A stretch of DNA of 64,000 nucleotides, from contig NZ_ATVM01000001.1 in NCBI RefSeq assembly GCF_000420725.1, positions 186,001 to 250,000 on the forward strand, read 5' to 3'. The notes under the pieces are model-generated. The model had not been told where the DNA came from and ran no database searches. It saw nothing but the letters and a program-made list of their open reading frames with translations. The stretch's first letter is position 1; the number at the start of each line of letters is the position of its first letter. The position numbers and the translations under genes were made by a program. This stretch comes from Marinococcus halotolerans DSM 16375. GTDB lineage: Bacteria; Bacillota; Bacilli; Bacillales; Marinococcaceae. Positions 36,893 to 41,991 of this stretch are shown in pieces.

Positions 36893-36923
36893 TAAAGAAA
36901 CCGCGCAATTACTGCACGGTTTC
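36893..36923 (-). terminator. Intrinsic terminator after pdp
   Basis: GAAACCGTGC and GCGCGGTTTC form a stem with the pdp stop codon in its loop side, followed on the minus strand by TTTACTTG. It ends the nucleoside salvage operon. Confidence 0.75.
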
Positions 36924-38210
36924 ATAAATGAGGACTGGTTTTTCGACCGCAGCTTCTGCAATCGTAAAGGCTTCGGAAATTTTCTTTGCACTTTCGGCGC
37001 TGTCCTGGTCATTCACATGCATAATGGCAATTGTATCGCCTTTTTGCACAGCGTCACCGATTTTTTTCGTGAGCTCAATACCCACACTGTAATCAAGCAC
37101 GTCGTCCTTGGTAGCACGTCCGGCTCCAAGAAGCATCGCACTTACGCCGATTTCTTCAGCTTCAATGCCGTGCACATAGCCGGAGGCTTCCGCCTTCACT
37201 TCCACGCGGTGCTCGGCAGCGGCAAGACTTTCCGGATCATCTACAGCGGAGGCGTCTCCGTGCTGATTTTCCACGAATGCTTTCATTTTTTTAAGCGCGT
37301 CCCCGTTTTCAATTACCTCGAGCACCATTTTTTCCGCCTGCTCAAGCGATTCGGCTTTGCCGCCTGCAACAAGCATATAGGAAGAAAGCGTAACGCTCAG
37401 CTCGTGCAGATCTTCGGGGCCGTTGCCCTGCAGCGTTTCAATTGCTTCTTTTACTTCGAGCGCGTTCCCGACGGTCCGGCCGAGCGGCTGGTCCATATTG
37501 GAAATGACCGCCATCGTTTTACGGTCGAGTGACTGACCGATTTCCACCATCGCCTCTGCCAGACGCTTGGCTTCCTCCACTTCTTTCATAAAGGCGCCCG
37601 AGCCTGCCTTTACATCCAGCACGATCGCATCCGCGCCGGCAGCGATTTTTTTACTCATTACCGAGCTTGCAATCAGCGGAATCGAGTTTACGGTCGCCGT
37701 CACGTCCCGGAGCGCATACAGCTTTTTGTCTGCCGGAGTCAGATTGCCGCTCTGGCCTGCGACCGCAATTTTATGCTCATTAACAAGATTGACGAATTCT
37801 TCCTTAGGAATCTCTGTTTCGAATCCACGGAAGCTTTCCAGCTTATCGATCGTCCCGCCGGTGTGTCCGAGTCCGCGCCCGGACATTTTCGCCACAGGGA
37901 CGCCGCAGGCTGCTACAATCGGCCCGATGATCAGCGTCGTTTTGTCGCCGACACCTCCGGTGGAGTGCTTGTCCACCTTGATTCCTTCGATCGCCGACAG
38001 ATCAAGCTGATCGCCGGACTCTGCCATCGCATAGGTAAGCGCAGCGGACTCCTGCTGGGTCATGTCCTGAAAGTAAATCGCCATTGCAAACGCCGATGCC
38101 TGGTAATCCGGCACCTCACCTTTGCTGTAAGAATCCACAAACCAGCGGATTTCTTCTTCACTCAGTTCTTTTCCATCACGCTTCTTTGCAATAATATCCA
38201 CCATTCTCAT
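36909..38210 (-). CDS. pdp: Pyrimidine-nucleoside phosphorylase
   Basis: It phosphorolyses uridine, thymidine and deoxyuridine. The 433-residue protein has the family signature [17 protein letters not shown] near residue 110, the phosphate-binding [12 protein letters not shown] near 80, and the C-terminal barrel-sandwich-hybrid domain. ATG 38210 follows AAAGGGG. It is the last gene of the salvage operon deoB-punA2-punA1-pdp, which together turns nucleosides into bases and pentose phosphates. Confidence 0.96.
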
Positions 38211-38239: not shown

Positions 38240-39055
38240 TTACGTATTTTTGACGATTTCCTTCATTAAAGAAATAAAAATCGGTTTGGTTTTAGCCGCC
38301 GTTTCCATCACTTCATCGTGGGATATGCTGACGATTTCTTCACCGATGGCCATATCAGTAATACACGAAACACCGAGTACGCGCAGTCCGGCATGCTGGG
38401 CCACAATTACCTCCGGCACCGTGGACATGCCCACCACATCAGCGCCGACGTTACGGAGCAGGATTAGCTCTGCCCGGCTCAGAAAGTTCGGACCGCCGAT
38501 GCCGCCGTAGACGCCGCGTTTCAAGTCAATTTCAAGCGTTTCAGCAGCCTGGAATGCTTTCCCGCGGAGTACCGGATCGTACGCCTGGCTCATATCAGGA
38601 AAACGCGGGCCAAGCTCATTGTCATTTGGACCGATCAGCGGATTGGATCCGGTAAAGTTTATGTGGTCTTCAATCACCATTAAGTCTCCTGGGCGAAACG
38701 ACGACTGCATCCCCCCGCAGGCATTGGTAACAAATAAAAACTCGGCACCGAGCGCTTTCATCACCCGCACCGGGAACGTTACCTCCTGCATCGAATAGCC
38801 TTCATAGTAGTGAAAGCGGCCCTGCATCGCTACTACTGTTTTTCCTTCGAGCTCGCCGAGTACGAGGCGTCCGGCATGGCCCTCTACGGTGGAAACAGGA
38901 AAATGCGGAATGTCTTCATACGCAATGACGGTGCCTGCTTCAATATCGTCAGCCAGGTCGCCGAGCCCGGAGCCGAGAATCATGCCGACTTCAGGCGCTG
39001 CACTGTATTTCGACTGTATATAATTCTTTGCTTCCTCTATTTTTACAGCGTCCAT
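38240..39055 (-). CDS. Purine nucleoside phosphorylase paralogue with altered base-recognition residues
   Basis: This 271-residue member of the trimeric PNP family is about half identical to the adjacent copy upstream. The phosphate and ribose elements are kept ([34 protein letters not shown]). The two residues that read the purine ring in this family are changed: the YETPAE block reads FLSRAE, so the base-contacting Glu (human Glu201) is Leu192, and the SN of ISCISN reads TD, so Asn (human Asn243) is Asp234. Asn-to-Asp here is known in human PNP to shift preference toward 6-aminopurines. The ATG directly abuts the previous stop codon. A nucleoside phosphorylase of different specificity is my reading. 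Confidence 0.85.
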   Translation of the reverse strand: MDAVKIEEAKNYIQSKYSAAPEVGMILGSGLGDLADDIEAGTVIAYEDIPHFPVSTVEGHAGRLVLGELEGKTVVAMQGRFHYYEGYSMQEVTFPVRVMKALGAEFLFVTNACGGMQSSFRPGDLMVIEDHINFTGSNPLIGPNDNELGPRFPDMSQAYDPVLRGKAFQAAETLEIDLKRGVYGGIGGPNFLSRAELILLRNVGADVVGMSTVPEVIVAQHAGLRVLGVSCITDMAIGEEIVSISHDEVMETAAKTKPIFISLMKEIVKNT

Positions 39056-39898
39056 TCAGGCATCCTCCTGTGCGATCCGGCGAAGGGTTTCTTTCATTAA
39101 TTTCAAGAAATCTTCCTGGACCTTTGATGTCGTATCCATGACTTCATCATGGCTCAACGGCTGGTCAAGCATACCGGCAGCCAGGTTTGAAATGCAGGAA
39201 ATGCCGAGGACTTCCATGCCTCCGTGAACGGCAACAATTACCTCCGGCACCGTGGACATACCAACGGCGTCTGCACCCAGCACACGTGCCATGCGGACCT
39301 CTGCCGGAGTTTCATAGGCCGGGCCGGTGTTTGCCATGTACGTGCCGCGCTGAATACGGATATTTAGCGACAGCGCCGCCTCGTCAGCAATTTTGGCGAG
39401 TCCCTTCGAATACGCCGAACTCATATCCGGAAACCGGGGGCCGAGCTCTGCATCGTTTTCTCCGATGAGCGGGTTAGCGCCGAGCCAGTTGATGTGGTCA
39501 TCAATAATCATTAAATCACCCGGTTCAAAGTCATGGTTCACGCCGCCCGCAGCGTTGGTAACGAGAAGCCGTTTCACTCCGAGTGCGTTCATTACCCGGA
39601 TTGGAAACGTTACTTCCTGGAGGGAATACCCTTCATAGTAATGAAAACGCCCCTGCATTGCCGCCACCTGCATGCCTTCAAGTTCACCGAATACAAGCTG
39701 GCCCGCGTGGCCTTCCACTGTAGAAACGGGAAAGCCGGGGATATCTTCATATTTTAGAACGACCGGGTTTTTAATTTCATCGGCCAGTACTCCCAGGCCG
39801 GAACCGAGCACGAGGCCGGTCGACGGTACGGCAGGGATGTTGGACTGAATGTATTGAACTGCTTCCTTGGTTTGCTGCTGGATACTCAAGTTATTCAC
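39056..39898 (-). CDS. punA: Purine nucleoside phosphorylase (PupG type)
   Basis: This trimeric 6-oxopurine nucleoside phosphorylase splits inosine and guanosine with phosphate. The 280 residues have all canonical pieces: LGSGLG near residue 32, [31 protein letters not shown], and the base-binding Glu196 in AYETPAE and Asn238 in SCISN. B. subtilis PupG aligns throughout, and pupG likewise follows drm (deoB). Its start overlaps the end of deoB by eight bases, and the diverged second copy follows without a gap. Confidence 0.94.
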
Positions 39899-41084
39899 CC
39901 TTCCTTTTTAATAGCGGTAAAAAGCTCGTGCCATACTTCGGCATGGACAGACGGAAATTATCCGCTACCGTGGCTCCGATATCGGCAAATGTTCCCCGGA
40001 TGCCAAGCGGTGCTGAGCCGGTGCTTTTGCTGTAGGCAAGCAGCGGCACGATTTCACGGGTATGATCGGTACCGTGATGGACAGGATCATTTCCGTGGTC
40101 GGCCGTAATAAGCAGAAGGTCATCCTCATGCATTGCTTCGAGCAGCTCTGGAAGCCGGGCGTCAAACTCCTCAAGCGCCTCTCCGTATCCCTGCGGGTCA
40201 CGGCGGTGGCCGAACTTGGCGTCAAAGTCCACCAGATTCAAAAAGCTGAGGCCCGTAAAGGACTTCTGCGCCGTTTCCGTCACACGGTCCATGCCGTCCA
40301 TGTTGGACGAGGTCCGGATCGACTCCGTCACCCCTTCGCCGTCATAAATATCGCTGATTTTTCCAATAGCAATGCTGTCGAGGCCTGCGTCTTCAAGGTC
40401 ATTCATGACCGTGCGGCCAAACGGCTTAAGCGCATAATCGTGGCGGTTGGACGTCCGTTCGTAGTTTCCGGGGGAGCCTTTAAATGGCCGCGCGATCACG
40501 CGGCCGATCATATACGGTGCTTCGTACGTCATCGCCCGCGCTTTTTCGCAGATGTCATACAGTTCTTCAATAGGCACCTCATCTTCGTGGGCCGCGATTT
40601 GAAGCACTGAATCCGCCGATGTATAGACAATCAGTTTGCCGGTCTTTTGGTGTTCTTCGCCGAGTTCTTCAATGATCTCGGTGCCTGAAGCTACTTTGTT
40701 TCCGAGGATGCCCCGGCCCGTTTCCTGTTCGAGCTGCTGCAAAAGCTCATCCGGAAAGCCTTCCGGAAATGTGCGGAACGGCTCATCAATATAGAGGCCC
40801 ATGATTTCCCAGTGGCCGGTCATCGTGTCTTTGCTTCGAGACATTTCTTCCATGTAGCCGTAGGAAGCTGTAGGCGCCGCTGATGCCTCTACGCCCGGAA
40901 TTTCCCGGATGTTTCCAAGACCGAGTCGTTCAAGGTTCGGAATTTTGATTCCATTCATGTGCTGAGCGATATGACCGAGCGTGTCGGCACCTTTATCCCC
41001 GTATTCTTCAGCGTCAGGGGCTTCGCCGATACCGACAGAATCCATAACAACTAAAAAAACGCGTGGATATTTGTAGTTTTCCAT
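39891..41084 (-). CDS. deoB: Phosphopentomutase
   Basis: It isomerises (deoxy)ribose-1-phosphate to the 5-phosphate, linking the phosphorylases to central metabolism. The 397-residue alkaline-phosphatase-superfamily enzyme shows the metal-binding start [16 protein letters not shown], the phosphoacceptor region [11 protein letters not shown] and the C-terminal DHGNDP...HTREIVP. The start is ATG 41084 behind AAAGGAG; a longer in-frame extension overlaps xerD and lacks a ribosome site. It lies 20 nt after xerD, as in B. subtilis (ripX-drm). Confidence 0.95.
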
Positions 41085-41103
41085 TGCTCTCTCTCCTTTA
41101 CTG

Positions 41104-41991
41104 TTAGGCCCTTGGATGAGCCTGCAGGTATACATCTTTTAATTTATGGTTGGATACATGGGTATAAATCTGGGTGGTGGAAATATCTGCGTGCCCGAGC
41201 ATCTCCTGGACCGCCCGCAGATCTGCCCCGTTTTCGAGCAGGTGGGTGGCGAAGGAATGCCTAAGGGTATGCGGAGTTAATGCTTTTTCTATGCCCGCTT
41301 TGCCTGCCGTTGCTTTTAATATTTTCCAAAAACCCTGTCTTGAAAGCGGATTGCCGTGATGATTAACAAATAACAGGTCGTGGCGTTTGTTTTTCATCAG
41401 GGTACTGCGTCCGTGATGTATGTACGTATCAATAGCCTCGGAAGCCACTTTCCCAAGTGGCACAATCCTCTCTTTGTTTCCTTTTCCAATACAGCGGATA
41501 AATCCCATCTGCAGATGCACATCAGAAATTTTCAATTCACACAGCTCTGTAACCCGCAGACCGGTAGCATACATGCATTCAAGCATCGCCTGATTCCGTT
41601 TTGCAAAGGCCGTCGTTCCTTCGGCTGCTGTAAGCAGCCGCTCAACCTCCTGAGTGGATAACACGGTCGGGAGCTTTTTTTCTCCTTTTGGAATTTCAAT
41701 CAATTCCGCGGGATCCTTTTTTACTACCTGCTCACGCAGAAGAAACTGGTGGAACGCCCGGACCGACGACAAAAAGCGCGCCAGCGTAGCTGTAGAGCGC
41801 CCGGCTTCTTTTTGAGCATACAAAAAATCCACGATATCCGCACGCTCGGTGTCCGTCCAGGACTGCTTTCCCCGAAGCTGAATAAATTTTCTATAGTGTT
41901 CCAGGTCTCTTTGATACGACTGAATCGTGTTTTTGGAGAGGCCCTTTTCAACTTGGCAATAATGTATAAAATCCAGTACCTCCGTGGTCAT
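41104..41991 (-). CDS. xerD: Site-specific tyrosine recombinase XerD
   Basis: With XerC/CodV it resolves chromosome dimers at dif. The 295 residues have an N-terminal SAM-like core-binding domain (1 to about 90) and the catalytic domain with the first Arg in [25 protein letters not shown] and [15 protein letters not shown], including the tyrosine nucleophile. B. subtilis RipX holds the same place between fur and drm, so this is the housekeeping recombinase, not a mobile-element integrase. The small gene yqzK, present in B. subtilis between the two, is not seen. Confidence 0.94.

Follow-up and report, generated by a model that had tools for sequence, protein, structure and literature searches.

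A Leu/Asp purine nucleoside phosphorylase of Marinococcus halotolerans, predicted to act on adenosine in genomes that lack DeoD

Two purine nucleoside phosphorylase (PNP) genes lie in tandem on the minus strand of a 64,000-nucleotide stretch of the Marinococcus halotolerans DSM 16375 genome (contig NZ_ATVM01000001.1, positions 186,001 to 250,000; the window), and the question raised by this locus is which nucleoside the second enzyme, PNP2, acts on. A sequence-only reading had proposed that PNP1 keeps the Glu/Asn pair that reads 6-oxopurines, that PNP2 has Leu and Asp instead, and that PNP2 may thus phosphorolyse 6-aminopurine nucleosides or an unusual nucleoside. From its sequence and from the gene content of related genomes, PNP2 very probably takes the place of DeoD as an adenosine/deoxyadenosine phosphorylase. 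The features on which the question turns are the following:

38240..39055, minus strand: PNP2, Asp-type (Leu192/Asp234) purine nucleoside phosphorylase, predicted adenosine/deoxyadenosine phosphorylase; 271 amino acids, ATG start (open reading frame, NCBIfam score, predicted fold, PDB match)
39056..39898, minus strand: PNP1, Glu196/Asn238 purine nucleoside phosphorylase, 6-oxopurine type; 280 amino acids, GTG start (open reading frame, TIGR01700)
38480..38482, minus strand: Leu192 codon of PNP2, at the place of human PNP Glu201 (sequence, alignment)
38354..38356, minus strand: Asp234 codon of PNP2, at the place of human PNP Asn243 (sequence, alignment)

Both open reading frames were found where they had been proposed. 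Global alignment of their products gave 59% identity (160 identical residues in 271 aligned pairs) and confirmed the exchange in the base pocket, with the motifs YETPAE (Glu196) and CISN (Asn238) in PNP1 and FLSRAE (Leu192) and CITD (Asp234) in PNP2. The phosphate and ribose positions, mapped by motif to human PNP and its residue numbers, are all ten intact in PNP2 (S29, H60, R80, H82, Y84, F152, Y183, M210, S211 and H246), as the sequence-only reading had it. PNP2 scored 386.7 bits against NF006054 (cut-off 218) and gave no match at E ≤ 0.001 to the NCBIfam deoD model (TIGR00107); by family score, fold and phosphate/ribose residues it is a trimeric-type (low-molecular-weight) NP-I PNP. Against TIGR01700 (PNP I, inosine and guanosine-specific; cut-off 293.35) PNP1 scored 363.9 and PNP2 348.3 bits, and three further Asp-type proteins that were checked also exceeded this cut-off. 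The Glu and Asn by which TIGR01700-type enzymes read 6-oxopurines are absent from PNP2. Since the model takes in PNP2 despite its inosine/guanosine label, the automatic name is probably wrong for this protein.

The window genome (G000, 99.96% complete) encodes four PF01048 proteins (E ≤ 0.001), namely PNP1, PNP2, MtnN (methylthioadenosine/S-adenosylhomocysteine nucleosidase) and a futalosine hydrolase. No protein of this genome passed the curated DeoD cut-off, and a DeoD elsewhere in it was considered and rejected, the other two PF01048 proteins being MtnN and the futalosine hydrolase. Among 29 genomes of the family, 25 have an Asp-type PNP and nothing that passes the curated DeoD cut-off; the remaining four, from one genus, have DeoD and an Asn-type PNP only. 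Adenosine deaminase was likewise rejected as an alternative adenosine route, PF00962 giving no match in any of the 29 genomes of the family, to which this search was confined. The gene apt, for adenine re-use, is present in G000.

The gene content also bears on whether PNP2 could be a methylthioadenosine phosphorylase (MTAP). The Asp and the letters SRAE do resemble the MTAP base site. This identity was nevertheless ruled out by family score (TIGR01694, 88.7 bits against a cut-off of 274.85) and by the retained 5'-OH histidine, His246, the MTAP 5' site being described as hydrophobic and without hydrogen-bond donors or acceptors (PMC5147791; papers are cited here by PMC number for excerpts of their text). 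With MtnN already available in the window genome for methylthioadenosine, we give this reading next to no credence.

The sampling was extended to the order and the class, where Asp-type genes were detected by a DNA pattern and DeoD by the curated model cut-off. In 249 genomes of the order, DeoD over the cut-off is missing from 35, all of which carry the Asp-type pattern, as compared with 11 of the 214 genomes with DeoD (Fisher P = 2.3e-33); a twelfth would be G232 (62% complete, with DeoD), in which the Asp-type gene is cut at a contig end and was missed by the pattern. All 249 genomes thus have DeoD or an Asp-type PNP. Of these, 25 gave no match to the PNP2 query (P0001), and they must have DeoD, because all 35 DeoD-less genomes match. 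Since related genomes are not independent, a permutation within families was performed; it gave 35 observed against 27.6 expected (P = 1.5e-7), from a stratified table that counts G232 as Asp-type on its cut gene. Five families (f1, f3, f8, f15 and f17) hold both states in a clean swap, and within a single genus (g65) G088 has the PNP pair without DeoD, and G122, G200 and G225 have DeoD without such a PNP. All 48 pattern matches in the order fall inside PNP genes. The pattern read backwards gave 15 matches in the 249 order genomes and six in the 299 class genomes, so that chance matches occur, and a variant motif would escape the pattern.

The class sample comprised 299 genomes, 27 of them also in the order sample (among these only G000 has the pattern). 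The pattern was present in 51 genomes, and DeoD was missing from 45 of these, against 34 of the 248 pattern-less genomes (Fisher P = 3e-25); 50 of the 51 pattern places proved to be Asp-type PNP genes (29 of 30 and 21 of 21 loci). Where pattern and DeoD coincide, G312 has no PNP at the match and G426, G436 and G530 have both genes. Two further genomes were noted for damaged genes. In G528 (L171) the Asp-type gene is split into two overlapping reading frames (819-1334 and 1219-1632) and DeoD is over the cut-off, as if the Asp-type gene were decaying where DeoD is present; G457 looks like the reverse case, with one in-frame TGA in its DeoD match (C1:1252136-1252828) and an intact Leu/Asp PNP. 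That the Asp-type PNP and DeoD complement each other in the family, the order and the class suggests that PNP2 fills the DeoD role, so that it would replace the absent hexameric enzyme in the window genome and in many relatives.

The AlphaFold model of the PNP2 monomer (pLDDT 93.6) was compared with the PDB. Judging by their titles, all 50 entries listed are PNPs or xanthosine phosphorylases (Z 38.0-43.1), the best being the Thermus thermophilus PNP 6tk9 (Z 43.1, rmsd 1.1, 54% identity over 271 residues), with 4m1e practically level (Z 42.9); when only sequences are compared, 6tk9 is outscored by the Clostridium perfringens Glu/Asn enzyme 8swu. The pocket of 6tk9 reads FASRAE and ITDMA, an Ala/Asp pair. 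T. thermophilus HB27 is reported to have two PNPs, TthPNPI acting on inosine only and TthPNPII acting on adenosine and not on inosine (PMC11430614), of 153 and 179 kDa, both called hexamers (PMC8073115). The entry 6tk9 is probably TthPNPII, because about 30 kDa a subunit, from the 179 kDa hexamer, fits 271 residues; the open-licence literature yielded no paper on 6tk9. If so, TthPNPII resembles PNP2 in its trimeric-type fold, in the Asp at the Asn243 place and in a non-acidic residue at the Glu201 place (FASRAE/ITDMA against FLSRAE/CITDMA), but has Ala instead of Leu there, and its 6-oxopurine partner is the 153 kDa TthPNPI, whereas that of PNP2 is an adjacent trimeric-type sister.

Mutants of other PNPs point in the same direction. 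The sequence-only reading had pointed out that Asn243-to-Asp in human PNP favours adenosine, and this change alone is indeed reported to raise the adenosine rate 5000-fold (PMC6128611). Yeast PNP Asn256Asp accepts adenosine as well as 6-oxopurines (PMC5074518), and in the DeoD-type enzyme of Bacillus cereus the D204N change shows an Asp/Asn switch setting adenosine against inosine (as cited in PMC5074518). The human Glu201Gln:Asn243Asp enzyme, in which both pocket positions are changed as in PNP2, cleaves adenosine-based prodrugs and is described as weak on guanosine; unlike PNP2 it is a laboratory mutant with Gln instead of Leu, studied as an antibody fusion, and its efficiency is low (586 per M per s with F-dAdo) (PMC2799393). 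DeoD of the B. cereus/B. subtilis type shares with PNP2 the predicted reaction and the Asp/Asn switch, but belongs to another PF01048 branch (model of 232 positions) and is known as hexameric.

As we infer its substrate, kinetics and hydrogen bonding, PNP2 would use phosphate to split adenosine and 2'-deoxyadenosine, releasing adenine and (deoxy)ribose-1-phosphate. The 6-amino group would donate a hydrogen bond to Asp234, which would also favour protonation of N7; without the Glu that otherwise binds N1-H of 6-oxopurines, the pocket would have no affinity left for inosine or guanosine. The 6-aminopurine proposal of the sequence-only reading is supported by the DeoD complementarity, the Ala/Asp match to 6tk9 and the human and yeast Asn-to-Asp mutants, whether Glu is kept in them or replaced.

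The same enzymes bear on an improbable alternative, in which PNP2 would handle 6-oxo and 6-amino substrates alike, as a general backup and not an adenosine specialist. Such breadth may be found in the 13 of 121 Asp-type relatives that keep Glu, including the Paenibacillus-type forms of three DeoD-less genomes. In PNP2, however, Glu is lost as well, and the human double mutant is reported as weak on guanosine (PMC2799393) and the Thermus PNP, which has Ala/Asp if 6tk9 is its structure, as refusing inosine (PMC11430614); moreover, the inosine/guanosine-type PNP1 already adjoins. Still less likely is a dedicated role on an unusual nucleoside, for example N6-modified adenosine, a special metabolite, or cytidine as for Schistosoma mansoni PNP2. 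The first pocket site is chemically variable among the relatives (M, L, E, C, S, N, F, Y) and cytidine activity is known for a trimeric-type PNP, but that schistosome enzyme is reported to retain Glu and Asn (PMC6128611), the neighbours deoB and pdp belong to ordinary nucleoside catabolism, and the complementarity with DeoD points to adenosine. This part of the sequence-only reading found no positive support here.

How the pocket residues are distributed was followed in 290 distinct PNP sequences, each covering at least 225 residues of the query. These are relatives near PNP2 of the window (the homologue search took the best 80 of 587), and the class loci were picked through an Asp pattern. 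At the second site (Asn238/Asp234) 169 have Asn and 121 Asp; because this residue defines the classes, finding it constant within either of them carries no information. The link between the two sites is not due to chance: the first is Glu in all 169 Asn-type sequences, and in the Asp-type sequences it is Met (79), Leu (15), Glu (13), Cys (7), Ser (3), Asn (2), Phe (1) or Tyr (1). Since positions 237, 239, 116 and 197 also separate the classes fully or nearly, these sequences look like two paralogous groups and not like scattered substitutions. Conservation of the L/D pair had been held out as a check, and it came out divided: Asp marks a paralogue class, but Leu is one of several residues, mostly Met, so that Leu/Asp as a conserved pair was not upheld, even though Leu is found in five of the five genomes searched of the window's genus. 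His246, at the ribose 5'-OH, is conserved in 118 of the 121 Asp-type proteins (position matched by motif). The trimeric Bacillus PNPs of TIGR01700, presumably those named PunA/PupG, form the sister group of PNP2, and PNP1 is one of them.

This distribution also bears on the NCBIfam name taken literally, by which PNP2 would be a redundant inosine/guanosine isozyme. The TIGR01700 score above cut-off is in its favour. Yet 108 of the 121 Asp-type genes immediately follow an Asn-type gene in the same orientation, with each copy retaining the residue of its class, and the Asp-type is associated with DeoD absence; the name therefore hardly describes PNP2.

Some genomes depart from the simple pair. 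G018 and G019 (loci L088, L095 and L112) each have four trimeric-type PNPs, of which two are Asp-type, and the second Asp-type copy is just 61-62% identical to PNP2 of the window. In G064 (L162, 2294-3328, minus strand) the Asn-type PNP that neighbours a Leu/Asp copy has diverged strongly (42% to the query) and forms the longest end branch of the tree, and in G103, of the same family, the single PNP match is the Leu/Asp copy.

In the tree built from all columns one Asn/Asp change is needed, and two changes of the label Glu/other at the first site. Without the pocket columns these numbers rise to three and four; a single origin is still compatible with the starred branches, and the Thermus row is long and of unsure placement. 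These sequences therefore do not establish that the Asp class arose once, nor which of the two substitutions came first. Glu/Asp forms occur in Bacteroidota, Planctomycetes, Atribacterota and some Clostridium and Paenibacillus. Solved Glu/Asp PNPs from Bacteroides fragilis (8swt), Planctomyces limnophilus (4m1e) and Spirosoma linguale (4lna) show that Asp alone is common outside Bacilli; no literature on the Bacteroides enzyme was found in one open-licence search, nor data on adenosine use by any of the three. Within Bacilli, a genus called Paenibacillus-type by likeness to Paenibacillus jilunlii (g116) has Glu/Asp forms in three DeoD-less genomes (G326, G432 and G538) and in one with DeoD (G530), and three more of its genomes have DeoD and no pattern. 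Because these forms occur in DeoD-less genomes, Asp with Glu retained may suffice for DeoD replacement. A two-step path would then run from Asn to Asp first, with loss of Glu second. That the Asp-type PNPs are overlooked trimeric-fold adenosine/deoxyadenosine phosphorylases, misnamed by the current model and repeatedly replacing DeoD across Bacilli, and may show such a two-step switch, is the account we lean towards, with less assurance than for PNP2 itself.

Several observations weigh against an adenosine role in place of DeoD. The two genes are not strictly exclusive, since 11 of the 46 pattern-bearing order genomes (plus G232) and three to six of the 51 in the class also carry DeoD. Some genomes scored as DeoD-less have partial matches to the DeoD model (G157, 3.6e-53; G103, 8.4e-29; G400 of the class, 1.7e-36). 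Neither gene was detected by these tests in 34 of the 299 class genomes, so that adenosine phosphorolysis is not indispensable. Glu persists in the 13 Asp-type relatives mentioned above, the equation of 6tk9 with TthPNPII is drawn from subunit mass, and no assay of a Bacillota Asp-type member was found in the literature searched. A PF02578 protein in the window genome is a possible minor adenosine route, adenosine-acting members having been reported for that family. Finally, PNP1 itself might cover some adenosine activity, because AmPNP, a bacterial trimeric PNP, is weakly active on adenosine, about 1000-fold below inosine in kcat/Km (PMC6983109).

The surroundings of the pair contain these features:

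39891..41135, minus strand: deoB, phosphopentomutase (open reading frame; TIGR01696, 622.2 bits, cut-off 341.2)
39064..39069, minus strand: AGGAGG, likely ribosome-binding site of PNP2, within the final PNP1 codons (sequence)
36909..38210, minus strand: pdp, pyrimidine-nucleoside phosphorylase (open reading frame; NF004747, 677.8 bits, cut-off 559)
36897..36923, minus strand: terminator-like hairpin at the pdp end, possible operon end (consensus scan, 12 pairs)

The gene order on the minus strand is deoB-PNP1-PNP2-pdp, head to tail, an apparent operon on the strength of the layout. The 3' end of deoB overlaps the PNP1 start by 8 bases, and pdp begins 29 bases past PNP2. Since the TIGR01696 match begins only at residue 25 of the listed reading frame, the true deoB start is probably further in. 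The TGA of PNP1 abuts the ATG of PNP2 with no base between, and AGGAGG stands 8 bases ahead of this ATG, inside the PNP1 end; because of this arrangement, translation of the two is probably coupled. The terminator scan gave 11 hairpins of this kind for the region, where shuffled sequences have a mean of 6.8, so that the single hairpin is weak evidence. In such an operon PNP1 (inosine/guanosine), PNP2 and Pdp (pyrimidine nucleosides) would all pass sugar-1-phosphates to DeoB. Elsewhere in G000 (contig C6, L002, 2362-3848) the futalosine hydrolase gene adjoins what is presumably an MqnD-like gene, and for this reason menaquinone synthesis may follow the futalosine route.

The Asp-type kind is already known from Thermus. 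No description of an Asp-type PNP replacing DeoD, or alternating with it, in Bacilli was found in the open-licence literature, to which the search was limited and outside which an earlier one may exist. If the prediction is true, a wrong substrate is assigned to the gene in 46 of the 249 order genomes and 50 of the 299 class genomes, and metabolic models of these bacteria miss an adenosine route. The Asp-type enzymes would also be candidates for the enzymatic making of adenosine-type nucleosides, and they would represent a natural counterpart of the specificity switch engineered into human PNP, marked by its signature in gene content and controlled for by the adjoining sister copy.
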